From Gracilibacter sp. BRH_c7a (GTDB lineage: Bacteria > Bacillota > Desulfitobacteriia > Desulfitobacteriales > Syntrophobotulaceae), in assembly GCA_001516055.1 (NCBI GenBank), contig LOEZ01000091.1, positions 1 through 64,000 of the forward strand: DNA of 64,000 nucleotides. The letters run 5' to 3'. Position 1 is the first letter of the stretch. Each line of letters starts with the position of its first letter. The notes under the pieces are model-generated. The model made no database searches. It saw only the letters and a list, made by a program, of their open reading frames with translations, and was not told the DNA's origin. The position numbers were made by a program, and so were the translations under genes. This document shows, one piece after another, positions 53,831-64,000 of this stretch.

Positions 53831-54208
53831 TCAATCTCTCTCCACCTTAATCTTTTCCTTAATTTTATTGACTTGTTCATTCTCCGCCAAGCCTTCCATC
53901 CGTTCATACTCTTCACCGTATCCTTCAAGCTCCCTTAAATCAGCGGATAAGAAATCCTTAAAACCATTCCACACGTCATCCATCTTCTTTTTATCAAGGG
54001 AATAATGTACCCAGTATCCTTCTTTCTTTTCACTAATCAGACCTGCTTCTTTCAAGATCTTCAGGTGTTGTGATACTCTGGGCTGGAGCATATCAAGCGT
54101 TTCACTTAGTTCACAGACACATAGCCCTTGGACTGATAGCATCTTAATTATCTTTAACCTGGTCGGTTCACCCAGAGCTTTAAACACCTTATATAGTTCT
54201 TTTGCCAC
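53831..54208 (-). CDS. ArsR/SmtB-family repressor 1
   Basis: A 125-residue winged-helix repressor. LCVCELSETLDMLQPRVSQHLKIL contains the CxC metalloid site (alpha-3 type) seen in As(III)-sensing ArsR. GTG start. It is downstream of the permease gene by 67 bases and probably controls the permease, thioredoxin and CcdA genes through the repeated AT-rich sites. Confidence 0.92.
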   Translation of the reverse strand: MAKELYKVFKALGEPTRLKIIKMLSVQGLCVCELSETLDMLQPRVSQHLKILKEAGLISEKKEGYWVHYSLDKKKMDDVWNGFKDFLSADLRELEGYGEEYERMEGLAENEQVNKIKEKIKVERD

Positions 54209-54275
54209 GGTTCTATCAACCTCGCTTTAAAAGTCTTATTTATTATTGGTTTTCGCCGATAATTGTTATAGTTGA

Positions 54276-55445
54276 TTATATCATGTTTCCAAACATATAA
54301 CCTGCTACGGTAGACATGAATACTACCAGGATGATATAGGTTAACGTTTTCTTAGTTCCCAGCACACTTTTAATAACCAACATATTTGGCAGACTCAGCG
54401 CAGGACCTGCCAGCAATAAGGCCAAGGCTGGGCCTTTACCCATACCGGCACCTAGCAGTCCCTGAATAATCGGCACCTCAGTCAGAGTAGCGAAGTACAT
54501 CAATGATCCCACAAACGAAGCGATCAGATTGGCCTGAATTGAATTACCTCCCACTAAAGAGGAAATCCATTCGGCTGGGATTATCCCACCATTGGTTCCC
54601 GGTCTTCCCATCAGGAATCCTGCTGCCAGAACCCCAATAAACAATAGCGGTAAAATTAGTTTAGCAAAGTCCCAGGAAGAATCAACCCATTGTTTCAACT
54701 CATCTTTCTGGAACCAGCGAATAAGCATGTAAGCTAGTATGGCCAGTAATACAAAAGTTATTGGCCAATGCATCTGGTAAACCGTATACCAGAAACCTTC
54801 TGCAGTCTGTGGTTTGGCCCAAGCAGCAAATATGAGAATAAGTACCAGGGTCGAAAAATAAAGAAAATTCCTCGTGCCGCTTCTGCCAGATTCCTCTTCA
54901 AATCCTTCTTCAAATCCTAGAGCTTCATTCTTAGATTCTTCTTTACCATAAATCAAGGACATAATCAACCCAATGACTACAGCAAAAATGATTGCCCCTA
55001 CCGCCCTAGCCAAACCCAATTCCCAACCCAGAATACGGGCAGTTAAGATTATGGCAAGAACATTAATGGCTGGTCCTGAATAAAGAAAGGCCACCGCAGG
55101 ACCGATACCGGCACCTCTCCTATAGATTCCGGCAAAAAGCGGTAGTACGGTACAGGAACACACAGCCAATACCGTGCCTGAAACCGAAGCTACAGAATAC
55201 GACATCAATTTATTGGCCTGGGGACCGAAATATCTAAGCACTGCACCCTGAGATACGAAGTTTGCTATAGCCCCAGCAATAAAAAATGCGGGAATCAGAC
55301 AAAACAACACATGCTCCCTGGCATATTCCCCCAGCATCTTAAACGCCTCAAGGGTAGCAACCTCAACCGCCGGGTTCCCGAACGGAATCAGATAAGCTGC
55401 CAGAAATACACTGACAAATAGTAATAATTTTTGCCACTCTTTCAT
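54276..55445 (-). CDS. DUF318/ArsP-like permease
   Basis: A 389-residue membrane protein with eight to ten segments. Conserved sites include AVCSCTVLPLFAGIYRRGAGIGPAVAFL and GPAINVLAI. A cytoplasmic acidic loop (KEESKNEALGFEEGFEEESGR, about residues 170-190) is in the middle. Members export organoarsenicals (ArsP) or metals; with ArsR and a thioredoxin this is a metalloid efflux candidate. A decayed second copy lies at 62688-62812. Confidence 0.85.
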   Translation of the reverse strand: MKEWQKLLLFVSVFLAAYLIPFGNPAVEVATLEAFKMLGEYAREHVLFCLIPAFFIAGAIANFVSQGAVLRYFGPQANKLMSYSVASVSGTVLAVCSCTVLPLFAGIYRRGAGIGPAVAFLYSGPAINVLAIILTARILGWELGLARAVGAIIFAVVIGLIMSLIYGKEESKNEALGFEEGFEEESGRSGTRNFLYFSTLVLILIFAAWAKPQTAEGFWYTVYQMHWPITFVLLAILAYMLIRWFQKDELKQWVDSSWDFAKLILPLLFIGVLAAGFLMGRPGTNGGIIPAEWISSLVGGNSIQANLIASFVGSLMYFATLTEVPIIQGLLGAGMGKGPALALLLAGPALSLPNMLVIKSVLGTKKTLTYIILVVFMSTVAGYMFGNMI

Positions 55446-55468
55446 TTGATCATCTCCAATTTCCTTAT

Positions 55469-55494
55469 CAGTATATTCTTATTTACTTATATTG
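55469..55494. promoter_or_regulatory. AT-rich operator site 1 (before permease gene)
   Basis: AGTATATTCTTATTTACTTATAT lies 25 bases before the permease start. The same AGTATATTC-k-TAT core recurs at 55829, 57276 and 63052. Confidence 0.5.
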
Positions 55495-55552
55495 TTTACG
55501 AGCCATATTATTAGCTTCCTAAATGAAAGCTAATAATATAACTTTGCGAACA

Positions 55553-55789
55553 TTAAGACGACTTGAGAATTTTCTCGACTTCCTCCTTCGAAGGGAGCTT
55601 ACCGGCTAACTTCACTTTGCCATCAATAATAAGACCTGGGGTCATCAGTATACCAGTCTGGGCAATCTCTTTTATATCCGTCATCTTGTTAATAGAAGCA
55701 TCAACTCCTTGTTCGGCGGCAACTTCCCTGACTATTTCTTCAAGCTTCTTGCATTTCATGCAACCAGTTCCTACGATAGTAATATCCAT
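55553..55789 (-). CDS. Redox-active disulfide protein (thioredoxin fold)
   Basis: A 78-residue minimal thioredoxin-fold protein of the TIGR00412 kind with redox pair GCMKCKK (CxxC) near residue 10 and the cis-Pro in LMTPGLIIDG. It sits next to a permease and CcdA as in many anaerobes. It may reduce a metalloid-binding protein or arsenate reductase. A truncated paralogue lies at 62836-63009. Confidence 0.9.
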   Translation of the reverse strand: MDITIVGTGCMKCKKLEEIVREVAAEQGVDASINKMTDIKEIAQTGILMTPGLIIDGKVKLAGKLPSKEEVEKILKSS

Positions 55790-55824
55790 GTTTTCATTCC
55801 CTCCTAATTTATATCAAAGAATTC

Positions 55825-55858
55825 AATAAGTATATTCGTATATTATTATATGCTTATT
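55825..55858. promoter_or_regulatory. AT-rich operator site 2 (before small thioredoxin gene)
   Basis: AATAAGTATAT and ATATGCTTATT form an inverted repeat around AGTATATTCGTATATT, 36 bases before the thioredoxin start. Confidence 0.55.
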
Positions 55859-55948
55859 GAATTTTTAGTTCAAGCGAAATCTATAAAAAGATTAATTATT
55901 TTTTCTTTCAAATACAAATGCAAGCCGAGCAATGGGTACTTTTCTCGC

Positions 55949-56650
55949 TTACAGTCCTAAATAAAACATATAAAATCCTATCAGCAATATGACCAAACCC
56001 ATAAATATTTTTAATAAACTACTTGCCCTCCCATATCTTTCACTTGCCGATAACTTCTGAACAAAACCTACGGATGTCCCTGCAATCAGAACGAGTACAC
56101 TATGCCCCATCGAATAAAGCAATAGGAGTACAATACCAAAGAAAAGGCTACCTTCTTTAGCAACCATAGCAAGCAATACCACTAGAACCGGAGTTGCACA
56201 AGGGGAGGAGAAGAACCCTCCTAACACCCCCGCTATAAACGCACCCAAAAAACCGCGTTTGGTATTTTTGCTTATTAAATAAGTAGATGGAATAAAATTA
56301 TATATTTCCCATATCTGGAGTGCCATCATTACCATTAGCATACCAAGAATTAAATACCACCACGACCCTGTAGCTTGCATCAGTCTTCCAAGCAGAGAGG
56401 CCGCCGTTCCAAGTACGGTAAATGTAACCGCCATGCCAACCGCAAATACCACTGATAGTCTAAAAGCCCTTCGTGTATCCTTACCTCCTGTACTACCTAC
56501 GTATCCTATCACCAGCGGAACACTAGTCAGTGAACAGGGCGTAACTGAAGTAAGCAACCCTGCGAGGAGTGCCAGGATTGGTGCCAACCATATATTCGCA
56601 GTAATAGCAGATGAGAGTATTTCTAACCACTGATTGATCATGGTCTCCAT
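55949..56650 (-). CDS. CcdA-like membrane thiol-disulfide transporter
   Basis: A 233-residue CcdA/DsbD-type protein with about six membrane segments. The paired redox Cys are in LTSVTPCSLTSVPLV and GGFFSSPCATPVLV. It moves reducing power across the membrane, here probably to the adjoining exported thioredoxin. Its ATG overlaps the stop of that gene by one base. Confidence 0.92.
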   Translation of the reverse strand: METMINQWLEILSSAITANIWLAPILALLAGLLTSVTPCSLTSVPLVIGYVGSTGGKDTRRAFRLSVVFAVGMAVTFTVLGTAASLLGRLMQATGSWWYLILGMLMVMMALQIWEIYNFIPSTYLISKNTKRGFLGAFIAGVLGGFFSSPCATPVLVVLLAMVAKEGSLFFGIVLLLLYSMGHSVLVLIAGTSVGFVQKLSASERYGRASSLLKIFMGLVILLIGFYMFYLGL

Positions 56651-57219
56651 TATTCCACTCCCATTTCCTTTAACACTGCCAGAAGTTGTTCTTTTGTCAT
56701 CCCACCTTCATGTGTGGTAAAGACATGTTCATTAGTGGTCTTCGCGTTATACTTTTTTAATGGTAACGTATTCGGATCTTCAGGAGTATACGGCTTACCC
56801 TTGGCGTCAATAAAGACCTGAGTTGGAATCACACTAATTGGATAGCCCTTTGCCAAGTCCGGGAATTTCCAGACATCTACAAATCTAATAATAGCCTTAC
56901 CTTGAAGTTCTTCATTTAGCTCCTTTAACACAGGAGCCATCTCTTTACAAGGAATACAGGAGTCCGCACCAAAGTCAATAATAATCGGAATACCATAAGA
57001 TTTTAGCTTTTCCATGTCTATTTCTTTCGTAACAAGTAACGAAAAATCAGAGTTACTATCGGCCACACCAGCCGACAGTTGACTTTGATTGCTATCTATT
57101 TCGGACTCAGTAGGTTGATTTTTCATATACCAGATTCCTACAATGACTACAACGATAAAGATCGGTACCATCATTCTAATCCAAGGAGATTTTGAAGGAT
57201 TTGATGCCATGATGAACAT
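56650..57219 (-). CDS. Membrane-anchored thioredoxin-like protein
   Basis: A 189-residue protein with one N-terminal anchor (MVPIFIVVVIVGIWYM, about residues 18-33) and a thioredoxin domain with GADSCIPCKEMAPVL (CxxC). The domain probably faces outside and is reduced through CcdA. It may handle arsenic-thiol stress or cytochrome maturation. Confidence 0.9.
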   Translation of the reverse strand: MFIMASNPSKSPWIRMMVPIFIVVVIVGIWYMKNQPTESEIDSNQSQLSAGVADSNSDFSLLVTKEIDMEKLKSYGIPIIIDFGADSCIPCKEMAPVLKELNEELQGKAIIRFVDVWKFPDLAKGYPISVIPTQVFIDAKGKPYTPEDPNTLPLKKYNAKTTNEHVFTTHEGGMTKEQLLAVLKEMGVE

Positions 57220-57609: not shown

Positions 57610-58017
57610 TTACCAGAGACTATTAATCCTTTTCTTAAGATCCAAGATCTTTTCTTCAATTATCTTGGCTGTTCTAATAAATTCTTCTTTCTCTTTACCT
57701 GTCGGATCCTCTAATCCCCAGTCTTCTCTATGCTTCGATGGCAGGTAAGGGCAGTCGACATTACATCCCATTGTGATAACCACATCTACCGGCGGGATGT
57801 CTGAGATTAATTTAGATGTTTGAGTCTCGTTCATATCCACGTCATAGAGTTCCTTGATTACGGCTACTGCATCCTGGTTGATCTGAGGCTTTGTTTCCGT
57901 TCCTGCGGAAAAAGCTTCAAAACTATCGGAGGCAATCAGTCTCGAAATCGCTTCCGCCATCTGGGAACGGCAGGAATTATGAACACAAACGAAGGCAACT
58001 TTGATTCTTTCAGTCAT
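57610..58017 (-). CDS. arsC: Thioredoxin-type arsenate reductase ArsC
   Basis: A 135-residue low-molecular-weight phosphatase-fold reductase converting arsenate to arsenite. P-loop CX5R is CVHNSCRSQ. The resolving Cys pair lies in TMGCNVDCPYLP. Last gene of arsR-arsD-arsA-acr3-arsC; GGAG precedes the ATG. Confidence 0.95.
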   Translation of the reverse strand: MTERIKVAFVCVHNSCRSQMAEAISRLIASDSFEAFSAGTETKPQINQDAVAVIKELYDVDMNETQTSKLISDIPPVDVVITMGCNVDCPYLPSKHREDWGLEDPTGKEKEEFIRTAKIIEEKILDLKKRINSLW

Positions 58018-58030
58018 TGGCGTACTCCTT

Positions 58031-59068
58031 TTACATGTCTAATTTGGACTCTGGAAACCAATTTCTCGTTTTATTGGCTATACGTACCAGCGCCAACATC
58101 AAAGGCACCTCTACTAAAACTCCTACGACAGTAGCAAGAGTTGCGCCAGAATCTAAGCCAAACAAAGCAATAGCAACAGCGACAGCTAATTCAAAAAAAT
58201 TGCTGGCTCCGATCATCCCTGCAGGCGCAGCGATATTATGAGGAAGTTTCCAGGCTTTAGCCCAACCATATGCGATAGTAAAGATTAAGAACGTCTGGAT
58301 GGTTAAGGGAATTGCGATCATGGCAATATGCAGTGGGTTACCCAGAATCACATCACCCTGGAAGGAGAAGATAATAATCAGAGTCAGCAATAGGCCGACT
58401 ATGGTCGTATTATTAAACTTCGAAATAAAATTATTCTCAAAGTAATGAAGACCTTTATTCTTAATAATGTATTTTCTCGAAAAGTATCCTGCTGTAAATG
58501 GAATCACGACAAATAACAGCACGGAGAGAAACAACGTTTCATATGGTACAAAAACATCACTTACACCTAATAGAAAAGCCACTATAGGGGTAAAGGCAAA
58601 AAGCAATATTATATCGTTGACCGCAACTTGAACTAAAGTATATGCTGGATTCCCTTTCGTAAGATGGCTCCAGACAAACACCATAGCAGTACAGGGTGCT
58701 GCTCCTAATAGAATCGCTCCTGCCAAATACTGAGTTCCCAAGTCTTCAGATATCCAGGGTGCAAAAACGATCTTCAGAAAGAAAAATGCTATCAGATACA
58801 TAGTAAAAGGCTTAATTAGCCAGTTGATAACCGTCGTCACTGTCAGGCCTTTTGGGTTTTTGGTTGCTTGCAGAATACTGCTGAAATCAATTTTTAACAT
58901 CATCGGATAGATCATAAGCCAGATTAGAATAGCAACGGGTATCGATACATTGGCATATTCGAATTGGCTTAGAAATTCAGGTACTCCTGGAAAAAATTGA
59001 CCAATGGCGACTCCGACAACTATACATATGGCTACCCAAAGGGTTAGATATCTTTCAAAAAATCCCAT
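58031..59068 (-). CDS. acr3: Arsenite efflux permease Acr3
   Basis: A 345-residue Acr3 carrier with ten membrane segments. It shows the functional Cys/charged element GAAPCTAMVFVWSHLTKG and C-terminal GASNFFELAVAVAIALFG. It is an Acr3, not an ArsB-type pump. It is preceded by ArsA, which may energise it. Confidence 0.95.
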   Translation of the reverse strand: MGFFERYLTLWVAICIVVGVAIGQFFPGVPEFLSQFEYANVSIPVAILIWLMIYPMMLKIDFSSILQATKNPKGLTVTTVINWLIKPFTMYLIAFFFLKIVFAPWISEDLGTQYLAGAILLGAAPCTAMVFVWSHLTKGNPAYTLVQVAVNDIILLFAFTPIVAFLLGVSDVFVPYETLFLSVLLFVVIPFTAGYFSRKYIIKNKGLHYFENNFISKFNNTTIVGLLLTLIIIFSFQGDVILGNPLHIAMIAIPLTIQTFLIFTIAYGWAKAWKLPHNIAAPAGMIGASNFFELAVAVAIALFGLDSGATLATVVGVLVEVPLMLALVRIANKTRNWFPESKLDM

Positions 59069-59122: not shown

Positions 59123-60862
59123 TCACAACTCACTCAGCTTTTCACCCTTAATATCATCAGCACTCCAGGCGATGATCGCAAACTTACCGTTGGTGTGAGC
59201 ATCGACCTTATTGATCCACTCAATTTCATTACTTGCTTTCGCTGCTAATATCTGATTTGTCGTGCCAGTACGGTACAATGAGGAATTGATAACCCACCAT
59301 TTTGTACCTATCTTTGCACGTTTTAAATCTTCTTCCAGCCGCATTGCTTCATATACGGGTGTGGCCTCAGCAAGAGTTACAATAATGACTTCGGTTTCCT
59401 CCAGGTTACGCAGACGCGGCAACAATTTCTTGGCAGATTCGGGTACCCCCCCTTGTGAACGCTTAATTTCTTGGTTATAGCTTTGGGTGGAGTCCAGCAG
59501 AAGGAGCGTATGCCCTGTAGGAGCTGTATCGATAACTACGACTTCCTGCTCAGCTTTTTCCACAATCTCCGCGAAAGCACGGAATACAGCTATTTCCTGG
59601 GTGCAGGGTGATCTCAGATCCTCCTCCACATAGGCAACATCTTCTTCCGACATGGTCTCTCTTACTTTTGATAATACTTCCTCCTGATATTTCTTCAGTT
59701 CGGCATCTTCATCAATGTGACTCATGGTGATCCCACTGTTCTCATCGATTACAGATTTGAGGTGGGCTGCGGGATCGGTTGTGGTCAAATGAACTTTTTT
59801 ACCTTTAGACGATAATCCTAAAGCAATCGCTGCGGCGATAGTGGTCTTACCTACACCTCCTTTGCCCATGGTAAAGATTACTTTTTTTTGGCTCTTGTAA
59901 AGATCATCAATCACATCTTTCAGATTGAGAATGTTTTGAGCGTGTATCTTCTCGTTACTGACAACATAATTATCCTTGGTGAGAAAGGCACGTACATTAT
60001 CTATCCCTGTGATGTTATAAGCTCTCAGGGGTATCATATAAGAGGTGATTCCCTGTAGACTCTGCGGGATTTCGCTTAGTGCTTTTTGTTGTTTATGATA
60101 CAGGCTTGCGGAGACAGAATCATCGTGGGATGTCAATACACCGTTGATAACCAACATCTGATTATTTACACCGATTTCCTCAAGCTCCTTGGCTGCTCTT
60201 TCCGCTTCTTTCAGTGGAGATTCCTCAGGACGGGAGACCAAAACCAGGGTAGTTAGTTTTGCATCAGCCAAGGTATCAACTGCTTTTTTATAGGTATCTT
60301 TCTGGCTCTCCAATCCGGACAGCTGTCCCAGGCAAGATGCCCCGTGTGTACTCTCACTGATAAAGCTGCTCCAGGCTGAAGGCAGCTGCATCATCCTCAG
60401 GGTATGACCTGTAGGCGCAGTATCGAAGATTACATAGTCGTATTCTTCCTGCACCTTTTCATCGGTGATAAAAGCTGAGAATTCGTTGAAAGCTGCAATC
60501 TCAACCGTGCAGGATCCGGAAAGCTGTTCTTCCATGTTATTAAGGACAGTCTCAGGTAATTTACCCCTGTAAGGACCAATAACTTTCTCACGATATTCAG
60601 CTGCTGCCTCGATAGGATCAAGGTTGGCCACCACAAGGTTTGAAACCTCTTCTATTGGCACCCCTTTATTGCTCAGCTCAGTACCGAATACATCCTGTAA
60701 GTTCGAGGCCGGATCGGTACTGATTAAAAGTACCTTTTTACCGCTATCGGCCAGGGTAACAGCTGTAGCACAGGCGGTCGAAGTTTTGCCAACTCCGCCT
60801 TTACCTGTAAAAAATAAATATTTGGTGAGACTTATCTTGCTTAGATCAAATGCTTCAAACAT
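59123..60862 (-). CDS. arsA: Arsenical pump-driving ATPase ArsA
   Basis: A 579-residue duplicated ATPase with P-loops GKGGVGKTSTACA (N-half) and GKGGVGKTTIAAA (C-half). DTAPTGHTLRM and DTAPTGHTLLL are the paired signature motifs. The As(III)-sensing Cys are in SGSCTVEIAAF and RSPCTQEIAVF. The length is that of full-size ArsA. It lies just after arsD. Confidence 0.96.
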   Translation of the reverse strand: MFEAFDLSKISLTKYLFFTGKGGVGKTSTACATAVTLADSGKKVLLISTDPASNLQDVFGTELSNKGVPIEEVSNLVVANLDPIEAAAEYREKVIGPYRGKLPETVLNNMEEQLSGSCTVEIAAFNEFSAFITDEKVQEEYDYVIFDTAPTGHTLRMMQLPSAWSSFISESTHGASCLGQLSGLESQKDTYKKAVDTLADAKLTTLVLVSRPEESPLKEAERAAKELEEIGVNNQMLVINGVLTSHDDSVSASLYHKQQKALSEIPQSLQGITSYMIPLRAYNITGIDNVRAFLTKDNYVVSNEKIHAQNILNLKDVIDDLYKSQKKVIFTMGKGGVGKTTIAAAIALGLSSKGKKVHLTTTDPAAHLKSVIDENSGITMSHIDEDAELKKYQEEVLSKVRETMSEEDVAYVEEDLRSPCTQEIAVFRAFAEIVEKAEQEVVVIDTAPTGHTLLLLDSTQSYNQEIKRSQGGVPESAKKLLPRLRNLEETEVIIVTLAEATPVYEAMRLEEDLKRAKIGTKWWVINSSLYRTGTTNQILAAKASNEIEWINKVDAHTNGKFAIIAWSADDIKGEKLSEL

Positions 60863-60872
60863 AATTCACCTC

Positions 60873-61247
60873 TTAACAGCAGCCGTTCGGACCGCAGCAA
60901 CCGCTGTCTTCTTGTTTTAGCACAAAGGTATGCTTAGCTTTTATTTCCACACCTAACAAGGTAGAAAGTTCTTCGTTGGTAGGATATTCTTTCTTTTTGA
61001 CAACTTCACCATCTATGATTGTAACAGGCAGGACGTCTACACCATCTTCCTTAAGAAGATCATTAATTGTTTTGTTGGAGATAAATTCCTGAGGCTCATT
61101 AGCTAAGCCATATCTCTTGATGTCAATACCTTTTTCTTTTAGCACATTGATTAAAGAAGCCATTCTCAGAAGCTCAGGATCAATAGCTGGTCCACAAACT
61201 CCTGTATCACAACACATTGCCGGGTCAAAGATTTTGATTTTCTTCAT
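60873..61247 (-). CDS. arsD: Arsenic metallochaperone ArsD
   Basis: A 124-residue ArsD that carries arsenite to ArsA. Cys12-Cys13 and Cys18 in AMCCDTGVCGP form the chaperone site. The C-terminal CCGPNGCC adds four Cys in two vicinal pairs. Start ATG with AAGGAGG. Ten bases separate it from arsA. Confidence 0.95.
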   Translation of the reverse strand: MKKIKIFDPAMCCDTGVCGPAIDPELLRMASLINVLKEKGIDIKRYGLANEPQEFISNKTINDLLKEDGVDVLPVTIIDGEVVKKKEYPTNEELSTLLGVEIKAKHTFVLKQEDSGCCGPNGCC

Positions 61248-61282: not shown

Positions 61283-61600
61283 TTAGCACTTCGTATTCTT
61301 ATTTATCATACAAATACATTTTTCCTTTGGTGTCGTAATCTCATTTATAAAATATACAATTGCATCCGTTTTATCCTTATTGAGTGTGTATCTCATCCAT
61401 GCTCCATCACGAACAGCGTTTACGAGGTTGCTTTCCGCTAAAATTTTCATATGATAGCTGAGCGTTGATTGAGATATACTCAGATTTTCCAAAATGTCAC
61501 AAGCGCACATCTCCCCACATGACAGCATATCTACGATTTTTAAGCGTGTTTCATCTGATAATGCCTTAAATACGGAAGCAAACTCAATATAAGAATTCAT
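61283..61600 (-). CDS. arsR: ArsR-family arsenite-responsive repressor 2
   Basis: A 105-residue ArsR. GEMCACDILENLSISQSTLSYHM has the CxC As(III) site in the DNA-binding helix; the C-terminus adds CICMINKNTKC. The ATG at 61600 with GGGG upstream is preferred over a frame extended 33 codons upstream. It leads the ars operon and is divergent from the rhodanese gene. Confidence 0.93.
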   Translation of the reverse strand: MNSYIEFASVFKALSDETRLKIVDMLSCGEMCACDILENLSISQSTLSYHMKILAESNLVNAVRDGAWMRYTLNKDKTDAIVYFINEITTPKEKCICMINKNTKC

Positions 61601-61813
61601 AAAACCCCACACTCCATTGTCATATTGATATCTTTGAATGATATTCAATTTTATCGATATCTTAGTGCTTATTTTAATGGTCATATCGATATATGTCAAT
61701 ATGATTTAAATAGTAACAAATATCACTGATTAAAACAATTTCGCCTGATACAATGGGTTTGAACAAGTGAACATATTCTCATGTTATTTTCTTATATTAT
61801 AGGAGGAGCAAAA

Positions 61814-62683
61814 ATGGTGTTCAAGAATTTTAAACCAGATACCATGATAGTAGCCCTGATTCTCGTCATCAGTCTTATTACAGGCTGCAGCTCTCAACCC
61901 ATCATCCAGCCATCTCCGTCGTCTTCACCACAATCCCCATCCTCTGCCCCTGCAGCTGCCACAATTCAAGATCCAATTCAAACCAACATACTAGAAATCG
62001 AAGAATGGAAAGCAAAAATGACCGGTGAAATCAATAAAGATTATTATGTGATAGACCTCCGTACCCCCGGAGAAATTGAGTATGCAACAGCAATAAAGGG
62101 ATCAATCAATATCGACGCCAATGAAACGCTGGCCAAAGGTAATGTGGCCATTATAGCTGAAAAGCTGGCTGATGTTCCTAAGGATGCCTTGATTCTGCTT
62201 CACTGCAGGTCTGGCGGCCGTGTCAAGGCTAGCCTGGCGAAATTTACTGAAGCCGGCTATACCAATGTATTTGGACTGGATGGCTGGACTGTATTTGATG
62301 CTAAAGGCTATATGAGCGCAGCTAAAATAAATCCGAACACCGAGCACCTGAAACCAGAAGCTTGGGAGCCCAAGATTAACGGAAAAATTGGCAAAGACTA
62401 CTATGTTATCGACAGCCGTACCAAGGAACTTTATGATGCCGGACACATCGAAGGTGCTATGAACTTAGATTCCAGTGTAACGTTCACTGTAGATCATGCT
62501 GTTACAATGGCTCAAGTAGAGCAAGCTATTCCTGAGAAAGATGCGATTATTCTAGTACACTGTGGTGCCGGGACAAAGGCCAGAATAGTACAGACTCATC
62601 TTAAAGCAGAAGGTTATACTAATGTCTTTGTTCTGGATAACCCGATAACCATTGATAAGGATGGAAACTATAGATTTGAATAA
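61814..62683 (+). CDS. Two-domain rhodanese lipoprotein
   Basis: A 289-residue lipoprotein (lipobox LITGC, Cys25) with a Ser/Pro-rich linker and two rhodanese domains. Both carry catalytic Cys: LLHCRSGGRVKAS and LVHCGAGTKARIV. The ATG at 61814 follows AGGAGGAG. It may move sulfane sulfur outside the membrane. It lies against ars genes on the opposite strand, and its 3' end abuts a decayed permease copy, suggesting insertion. Confidence 0.88.
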   Translation: MVFKNFKPDTMIVALILVISLITGCSSQPIIQPSPSSSPQSPSSAPAAATIQDPIQTNILEIEEWKAKMTGEINKDYYVIDLRTPGEIEYATAIKGSINIDANETLAKGNVAIIAEKLADVPKDALILLHCRSGGRVKASLAKFTEAGYTNVFGLDGWTVFDAKGYMSAAKINPNTEHLKPEAWEPKINGKIGKDYYVIDSRTKELYDAGHIEGAMNLDSSVTFTVDHAVTMAQVEQAIPEKDAIILVHCGAGTKARIVQTHLKAEGYTNVFVLDNPITIDKDGNYRFE

Positions 62684-62687
62684 GAAA

Positions 62688-62812
62688 GTGCCCACAACCG
62701 AAGCTATCAAATTAGCTTGAATGGAATTACCACCTACCAAGACTCCGATAAATAATAGCGGTAAAATTAGCTTTGCAAAATCCCAGGAAGAAACAACCCA
62801 TTGTTTTACATC
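62688..62812 (-). pseudogene. Remnant of a second DUF318/ArsP-like permease
   Basis: Minus-strand translation gives KQWVVSSWDFAKLIL and then VGGNSIQANLIAS, matching the 54276-55445 permease. An in-frame deletion of about 24 residues lies between the two pieces. Both ends are lost. The right end falls at the hairpin TTTACATCC-TTCTTTGA-GGATGTAAA. Confidence 0.85.
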
Positions 62813-62835
62813 CTTCTTTGAGGATGTAAATCAAT

Positions 62836-63009
62836 TTAACCATCAATAATAAGTCCTGGAGTCATCAGGATGCCGGTCTGGGCAATCTCCTTAATATCTG
62901 TCATCTTGGTGATAGAAGCATCAACACCTTGTTCACCGACAACTTCCCGAACAGTATCTTCAAGCTTCTTACATTTGGCACACCCAGTTCCAACAATAGT
63001 AATCTCCAT
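62836..63009 (-). pseudogene. Truncated second copy of the small thioredoxin gene
   Basis: A 57-codon frame begins MEITIVGTGCAKCKKLED and follows the 78-residue protein at 55553-55789 to LMTPGLIIDG, where a stop replaces the Lys codon. The CxxC pair remains. The same order (permease then thioredoxin) as the intact set is kept. Confidence 0.85.
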
Positions 63010-63050
63010 TTTTGTTTACCTCCTCGTATTTATTTATTAAAATTAAACAA

Positions 63051-63082
63051 CAGTATATTCGTATATCATTATATATTTATGC
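63051..63082. promoter_or_regulatory. AT-rich operator site 4 (before the truncated thioredoxin copy)
   Basis: AGTATATTCGTATATCATTATA, about 43 bases before the truncated gene, matches site 2 almost base for base in its core. Confidence 0.5.
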
Positions 63083-63163
63083 TTCAAGAAAAAATGTTTC
63101 TTTAAATTACTTACTCCAATTTTATCTCTATTAAAATATCCTACTTCAAAATTCTTACTCTCG

Positions 63164-63613
63164 TTAACAGCAACCGCCACCACCGCAACAGCAGCCAGAA
63201 TTTCCTGCACGTGCAGCCGGTGCTTTTGTTGCTTCCTCTATACCTAAAACCTTAAGGGCCGCCTGCCGAATGGCCTTAGCAGGAATGTCTTCATACTCCT
63301 CACCGTCATATTGTATCGTACGACAGTAAGTTTCATTCCCTAGTAAGGTTGTACAGGAATCACAGTAGTTCTGCGATACCTCAATATTCAGAATATCTTC
63401 AATCCCAACTCCATTGAAGAGGATAGTATTTGATTGAGGGATTTGAGTATCATCAAGCTTGGTCTCGAACCATTCTACCTCAATTCCCTGTGGTTGCAGG
63501 GCTCTGTTTAATCTTTTTACTTCCTGATTTAGATTTTCACCCGTATCATAACAACGATTACAGGTCTCCCCTTCCACATCCAGGTGTCTCCATTCAATGA
63601 TTAACTTTTTCAT
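63164..63613 (-). CDS. DUF2703 Cys-rich protein
   Basis: A 149-residue DUF2703 protein with Cys pairs ETCNRCYDT and YCDSCTTLL. Its C-terminal tail GCCCGGGGCC is rich in vicinal Cys. The family is thioredoxin-like and common near metalloid-handling genes; its function is unknown. The ATG at 63613 follows GGAGGT; an in-frame start further up is less likely. It follows the ferredoxin by 43 bases. Confidence 0.85.
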   Translation of the reverse strand: MKKLIIEWRHLDVEGETCNRCYDTGENLNQEVKRLNRALQPQGIEVEWFETKLDDTQIPQSNTILFNGVGIEDILNIEVSQNYCDSCTTLLGNETYCRTIQYDGEEYEDIPAKAIRQAALKVLGIEEATKAPAARAGNSGCCCGGGGCC

Positions 63614-63656: not shown

Positions 63657-63959
63657 TTAACAACAGCCTCCACTTCCGCAGCCATCTGAACAGTCGCAGC
63701 TAGGTTCATCACCCTTCAGCCACCCTGAGATAACTGCAGCCGCACACCCAACACCCGGTCTTACTTCTATGGCCATAAAAGGACAGTTTTTGGCGCATGC
63801 CCCACATTCCATACAACTGTCTTTATTGATGATCTCAGATTTTCCGTTCTTCAAAGCAAAAACCTGATGAGGGCATACCTCAATACATCTTTCACAGCCG
63901 GTGCACGCATTCGTATTGAGTTTAAGCGTAGTGACATTCTTTAAATATTGATGCTTCAT
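63657..63959 (-). CDS. hgcB: HgcB-type ferredoxin (mercury methylation partner)
   Basis: A 100-residue ferredoxin with two [4Fe-4S] motifs: Cys19-22-25-29 (CTGCERCIEVC) and Cys49-52-55-59 (CMECGACAKNC). PGVGCAAAVI (Cys72) and a C-terminal Cys pair (99-100) follow, the features that set HgcB apart from ordinary ferredoxins. HgcB reduces the corrinoid protein HgcA and hands Hg(II) on. The tail here (CDCSDGCGSGGCC) is richer in Cys than usual. hgcA would lie off the right edge. A related ferredoxin without HgcA cannot be excluded. Confidence 0.85.
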   Translation of the reverse strand: MKHQYLKNVTTLKLNTNACTGCERCIEVCPHQVFALKNGKSEIINKDSCMECGACAKNCPFMAIEVRPGVGCAAAVISGWLKGDEPSCDCSDGCGSGGCC

Positions 63960-63976
63960 GCTTCATCATACCCTCC

Positions 63977-64000
63977 TTAAATCTGGATAAAACCGCTAAT
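63977..64000 (-). CDS. Possible 3' end of the gene upstream of hgcB (hgcA expected)
   Basis: One minus-strand frame reads ISGFIQI then TAA at 63977-63979, with the stop overlapping the AAGGAGGG of hgcB. That suits an upstream coupled gene, but only eight codons are visible, so the gene cannot be identified. Confidence 0.25.
   Translation of the reverse strand: MSGFIQI

Follow-up and report, generated by a model that had tools for sequence, protein, structure and literature searches.

A predicted mercury-methylation operon, probably under MarR control, in metalloid-detoxification DNA of Gracilibacter sp. BRH_c7a

Two standing questions about hgcAB are why bacteria retain these genes and what switches them on. 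Both are raised by a locus at the end of the window, i.e. the 64,000-nucleotide stretch of DNA analysed here, which corresponds to the first 64000 bases of contig C91 (101870 bases) in a 4.1-Mb genome of 98 contigs. The initial annotation had recognised an HgcB-type ferredoxin at the edge of an arsenic-resistance block, and had proposed that the organism would be a mercury methylator if hgcA were next door. The gene in question, hgcB, which encodes the dicluster ferredoxin of the mercury-methylation pair, is an ATG-started open reading frame of 100 aa on the reverse strand, with coordinates confirmed as exactly 63657..63959. All of the Cys features described in the annotation are present. Cys19/22/25/29 and Cys49/52/55/59 form two CxxCxxCxxxC motifs, each followed by a Pro, Cys72 lies within GVGCA ∼12 residues past the second motif, and the tail contains Cys88, Cys90, Cys94 and the C-terminal pair Cys99-Cys100. 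The protein passes the curated cut-off of the HgcB equivalog NF040864 from NCBIfam (132 bits for a cut-off of 99, with 93/93 positions covered), and the only other matches to this model across the genome are ordinary dicluster ferredoxins with at most 41 bits. In an HgcB tree, whose 99 columns resolve no single clade and whose outgroup rows are long, the nearest rows are all HgcB from hgcAB operons of the same order or near it.

Because the contig runs beyond position 64000, the rightward extension suggested in the annotation was possible. Directly upstream of hgcB lies a full-length hgcA (reverse strand, contig 63977-65065; ORF L012 978-2066, with the NVWCAAAKGTFGT motif), which ends 17 nt before hgcB and of which only the 3′ end (63977..64000) falls in the window. 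It starts at ∼65047-65065 with a TTG codon, the second TTG, behind GGAGGTG, looking better. The protein scores 490 bits with profile NF040863 (cut-off of 275), and consists of a corrinoid-binding domain, with NVWC at residue 116, and a membrane domain of about five C-terminal hydrophobic segments past residue 207. The presence of an hgcAB pair is thus near certain. With a full-length hgcA next to hgcB, and both above their equivalog cut-offs, the organism is a predicted mercury methylator, as the annotation had anticipated; methylation of Hg(II) is a prediction from sequence. Neither outcome that would have contradicted the annotation, a lack of hgcA close by or a place outside HgcB in the tree, was seen.

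The cap helix of this HgcA reads NVWCAAAK, which departs from the exact NVWCA(A/S)GK motif. NVWCAAGK is found in 79 of the 86 HgcA collected, the other seven are single variants, and NVWCAAAK is unique to the present sequence. Since this motif stands outside the curated cut-off, the departure lowers the certainty of activity and not that of HgcA membership. A decaying or inactive pair, impaired by this Gly to Ala change, would fit the uniqueness of the motif, but we regard it as very improbable, considering that hgcA and hgcB are intact full-length frames with high scores and that this HgcA shares 56-74% identity with other aligned Bacillota HgcA, bar a distant one at 41%. Moreover, Gly to Ala is a mild change in a helix, and two Clostridium HgcA have a Ser at that position. 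The residues known to matter are all there: the cap-helix Cys and the membrane part in HgcA, and the two CxxCxxCxxxCP motifs, the GVGC Cys and the tail pair in HgcB. According to mutagenesis summarised in PMC7305189, HgcA requires its cap-helix Cys and membrane domain, and HgcB requires the GVGC Cys together with one or more tail Cys. The pair resembles hgcAB of the type found in Pseudodesulfovibrio mercurii ND132, with adjacent genes, the same HgcA domains and cap-helix Cys, and a dicluster ferredoxin with a GVGC Cys and a terminal CC. It differs by its NVWCAAAK motif, an N-terminal HgcA extension with one Cys, a MarR-led operon and a DUF2703 gene in third position.

The gene order is marR-hgcA-hgcB-DUF2703. 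All genes are co-directional and every gap is ∼50 nt or less, that between marR and hgcA being ∼28-46 nt. Judging from this spacing and the shared strand, the four genes are very probably cotranscribed. The third operon gene after the regulator (63164..63613, reverse strand) encodes a 149-aa DUF2703 protein with the tail GCCCGGGGCC (PF10865, 138 bits). Its predicted structure has a pLDDT of 85, and comparison with the PDB gave nothing below an E value of 0.001, only weak thioredoxin-like matches; DUF2703 has been assigned a thioredoxin-like fold (PMC3091736), and has been described in an ars cluster of Rhodococcus (PMC6514093). We rejected the idea that hgcAB operons generally have DUF2703 in third place, since no copy adjoins hgcA in relatives. 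As it is found beside hgcB in this genome only, it may be a bystander. In a Desulfosporosinus-group relative (L089), a DUF2703 protein 87% identical to this one is encoded in an acr3-marR-arsP-DUF2703 arrangement. A search of the genome for MerB returned no match, and none was returned from the control either.

The upstream gene, co-directional with hgcA, encodes a MarR-family protein (contig 65094-65591; PF01047, wing-helix). It is a member of a distinct MarR subfamily, of which eight others were found among 74 genomes of the order and five further genomes were added by 398 of the phylum. Two Cys pairs (Cys28, Cys29 and Cys89, Cys90) are invariant across 13 homologues. In 13 of 14 other loci the gene after marR encodes an ArsP_1 (PF03773) permease, although at one of these marR is broken and the permease split. 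ArsP-type permeases belong to a family known for organoarsenical efflux. Here the next gene is hgcA, so that hgcAB stands in the place of the permease, whose best relative elsewhere in the genome shares only 34% identity. These marR-arsP(-DUF2703) cassettes, found in the Desulfosporosinus/Dehalobacter group and other Bacillota, otherwise share with our locus the MarR (48-63% identity) with its four Cys, a pair of putative operators and, where present, a DUF2703 protein up to 87-90% identical. Two of them have further arsenic genes in front, in arsM-marR-arsP (L184) and arsC-marR-arsP (L186) order. One genome (G451; L185, L188) has a marR with no detectable adjoining ArsP gene, plus another marR, which is broken and precedes a split ArsP gene.

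The regions upstream of marR contain palindromes close to TAGTTGAC-N3-GTCAACTA. Most loci have two, separated by 32-34 bp (by 41 bp in one case), and only 2/14 marR loci show a single one. The first palindrome overlaps the −35 element (TTGACN), and a TATAAT-like −10 element follows 16-18 bp on, just before or touching the second palindrome. At our locus, an exact palindrome (65651-65669) and a copy with three mismatches (65617-65635) are 34 bp apart; the exact form occurs once in the genome, and two sites per 20-kb stretch were seen in 0/200 shuffles. Other candidate operators were discarded: a site with one mismatch on another contig (C19) lies among purine genes and seems to be a chance match, and for sites with three mismatches genome-wide a control pattern scored higher. 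The putative operator pair bracketing the marR promoter is a classical repressor layout, and MarR control of hgcAB is likely. That this MarR would respond to a metal(loid) is suggested by its Cys pairs and the neighbouring genes, and arsenic or mercury as its signal is a reasoned guess. The annotation had pointed to reported links between hgcAB and ArsR-type genes and considered shared regulation worth testing. Shared metalloid control is plausible, but the likely regulator is a Cys-rich MarR and not ArsR, which we rejected because no arsR lies closer than one that begins 1.9 kb beyond hgcB, at the head of arsDA.

The ars block at whose edge hgcB lies is real. On the reverse strand, it consists of arsR (61283..61699; NF033788), arsD (60873..61247; NF033727, 136 bits for a cut-off of 90), arsA (59123..60862; TIGR04291, 840 bits for a cut-off of 650), an Acr3-type arsenite exporter (58031..59068) and an arsC-type arsenate reductase (57610..58017). 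The last two were named by sequence and context, homologues being found in ars operons of relatives and, for arsC, in hgcAB operons too. A rhodanese-domain lipoprotein gene (61781..62683, forward strand; PF00581) separates the block from a decayed small-thioredoxin and ArsP copy (62684..63109, reverse strand). This had also been noticed in the annotation, and its 62684-63080 part consists of copies, 81% (240 nt) and 89% (65 nt) identical, of genes at 55.6 and 54.6 kb. We rejected this decayed permease as the lost partner of MarR, since it copies the long ArsP at 54.3 kb and not the short one. The intact genes belong to a second metalloid block (53831..57219, reverse strand) encoding a thioredoxin, a DsbD-like protein, a small thioredoxin, an ArsP_1 permease and an ArsR, whose ArsR-ArsP-small thioredoxin part is collinear with a sister species (L204 5-2258). 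The duplicated small-thioredoxin/ArsP pair (62684-63080 and 54276-55789), of which one copy is decayed, brackets an arsRDA-acr3-arsC insert that is also missing from the equivalent place in the sister species.

The metalloid context is wider than the annotation had described, with hgcAB apparently inserted between genes for arsenic resistance and genes for arsenic respiration. Beyond marR, a divergent NapH-like/FMN-binding gene pair is followed by a respiratory arsenate reductase (arr) cluster (L012:4501-12588, contig 67500-75587), with genes for a TorD-like chaperone, ArrB, ArrA, an NrfD-like subunit, a sensor kinase, a response regulator and a PhnD-like binding protein. ArrB scores 328 bits for a cut-off of 450. 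ArrA scores 1176 bits over 848/848 positions for an equivalog cut-off of 1600, which is unreached in all 6 genomes with a match, this one included, and its nearest solved structure by sequence is ArrA 6cz7 (1057 bits).

The sister species (G001), which belongs to the same genus, also has this cluster, and the two are collinear at 82% nucleotide identity from position 65687 of our contig onward (L204 2340-15802 in the sister). Just before it, the sister has the small-thioredoxin/ArsP genes, to which the decayed thioredoxin copy and its promoter (62840 to ∼63109) align, the decayed copy thus forming the left flank of an empty site. Between these flanks, ∼2.58 kb in our genome (DUF2703, hgcB, hgcA, marR and both putative operators) correspond to ∼70 bp in the sister. 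No hgcA, close MarR or DUF2703 was found elsewhere in the sister genome, an 84% complete assembly in which a contig spans the site. This clean empty site indicates that the whole set, four genes and operators together, is either present or absent. Inspection by eye of the 2.6-kb unit revealed no evident terminal repeats or target duplications. Its GC content (39.6%) matches that of the contig (40.1%), so both a transfer from within the group and a loss in the sister are possible, and a single empty site likewise fits gain or loss.

These findings bear on whether the locus is simply an ordinary hgcAB in a metal-resistance island, with its own promoter and with MarR and DUF2703 as unlinked neighbours. 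Proximity of ars genes to hgcAB is common and has been reported (PMC7438021, PMC10349881), and DUF2703 is not beside hgcAB in the other genomes checked. We nevertheless consider this explanation unlikely, because the gap between marR and hgcA is too small for a promoter, marR retains two putative operators with −35 and −10 elements, marR is almost always co-directional with the gene that follows it in the homologous loci, and the 2.6-kb unit comes and goes whole.

Cobalamin-dependent methyl transfer to Hg(II), with HgcB supplying electrons, is established for other HgcAB. Considering the locus as a whole, we think it quite likely that it is a complete, probably functional hgcAB, in an operon repressed by its own MarR and originating from a metalloid cassette. 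MarR would occupy both putative operators until its Cys pairs bind a soft metal(loid), releasing the promoter; candidate ligands, guessed from the neighbours, are As(III), a methylated arsenical or Hg(II). HgcA, through a cobalamin with Cys119 as axial ligand, would then transfer a methyl group onto Hg(II), HgcB supplying the electrons, and thiol-bound metal would be handed on by the Cys-rich tails of HgcB and of DUF2703. As for its origin, hgcAB probably entered a marR-arsP-(DUF2703) cassette, in which it took the place of the permease.

We surveyed 102 distinct hgcA loci from relatives and named GTDB genomes, using a BLAST-based procedure whose counts are lower bounds. The gene just upstream of hgcA encodes an ArsR in at least 39 and a MarR in at least 17 of the 102 loci, and acr3/arsC are within 2.5 kb of hgcA in at least 24. 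In an HgcA tree, the sister of our protein comes from Peptococcaceae bacterium AS27yjCOA_185 (SH-aLRT 93, not starred), which has an arsR-hgcA-hgcB-acr3 order, and HgcA from BRH_c20a and Ruminiclostridium sp. MnB_11 follow next. Because all of these nearest relatives have ArsR, the simplest reading is that ArsR was exchanged for MarR in the present lineage. Bacillota operons of the kind arsR-hgcA-hgcB(-acr3-arsC), such as those of AS27yjCOA_185 and MnB_11, contain the closest HgcA and have arsenic genes in or beside them, whereas here MarR replaces ArsR, and acr3 and arsC remain with arsDA in an ars operon of their own. Dethiobacter alkaliphilus and Geobacter daltonii, by their description in PMC10349881, have a MarR-family gene before hgcA as here.

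The survey also revealed a second kind of MarR (CCGVTMAQCHALVE), distinct from ours, upstream of hgcA in 16 loci (L064, L106, L128, L135-L138, L141, L143, L147, L152, L153, L156 and L167-L169). It represents another class of hgcAB regulator that has drawn little comment. Its hosts include Bacillota, Aminicenantes and Atribacterota, among others, and C(C)G(V/I)T(M/L/V)(A/G/S)QCH is present as a motif in the four examples read.

Could HgcAB instead act on arsenic or another metalloid, by methylation or by disposal of methylated arsenic, with Hg methylation as a side reaction? In favour are its position in the place of an ArsP-type permease, the arsM gene beside one of the homologous marR-arsP cassettes, and the ars genes found at about half of the 102 hgcA loci. 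ArsR control of hgcAB has also been published, an ArsR-like regulator in P. mercurii ND132 responding to arsenic according to PMC10349881, where the work is cited. However, purified HgcAB is known to methylate Hg, using SAM as methyl donor (PMC11588087), no arsenic activity of HgcAB was found in the literature searched, and the catalytic residues look canonical. We find such a role improbable. Also improbable, and speculative, is the idea that hgcAB was captured as effector of an organometalloid-sensing MarR regulon, in which (methylated) arsenic would switch on Hg methylation and HgcAB would help to handle the metalloid.

Arsenic-linked hgcAB is already known, and the MarR/ArsP-cassette wiring is a new regulatory variant of it. 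A literature search, which covered few subscription papers, found no description of hgcAB within a MarR-ArsP cassette, of arr next to hgcAB, or of DUF2703 in third place, and no clean hgcAB empty site was reported in the literature searched. One small unit brings together the regulator and its operators, the displaced permease, the arsenic flanks and the empty site, so that the question of arsenic control of methylmercury production is reducible to two experiments, a DNA-binding assay and a reporter assay. Methylmercury output could rise in arsenic-rich anoxic sediments if the operon proves to be induced by arsenic.

Two minor observations concern Cys-rich proteins. In many HgcA (e.g. L060, L062, L078, L095, L127 and L140), the N-terminus is extended and contains CC or CCC clusters reminiscent of the HgcB, ArsD and DUF2703 tails; this extension is absent from most HgcA of the Desulfosporosinus group. 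At another locus (L091:8796-9780), an HgcB-like ferredoxin with 33% identity, a Cys-rich tail and 20 bits to the HgcB model adjoins DUF2703, with no hgcA, and is possibly a cousin of HgcB in metalloid islands.
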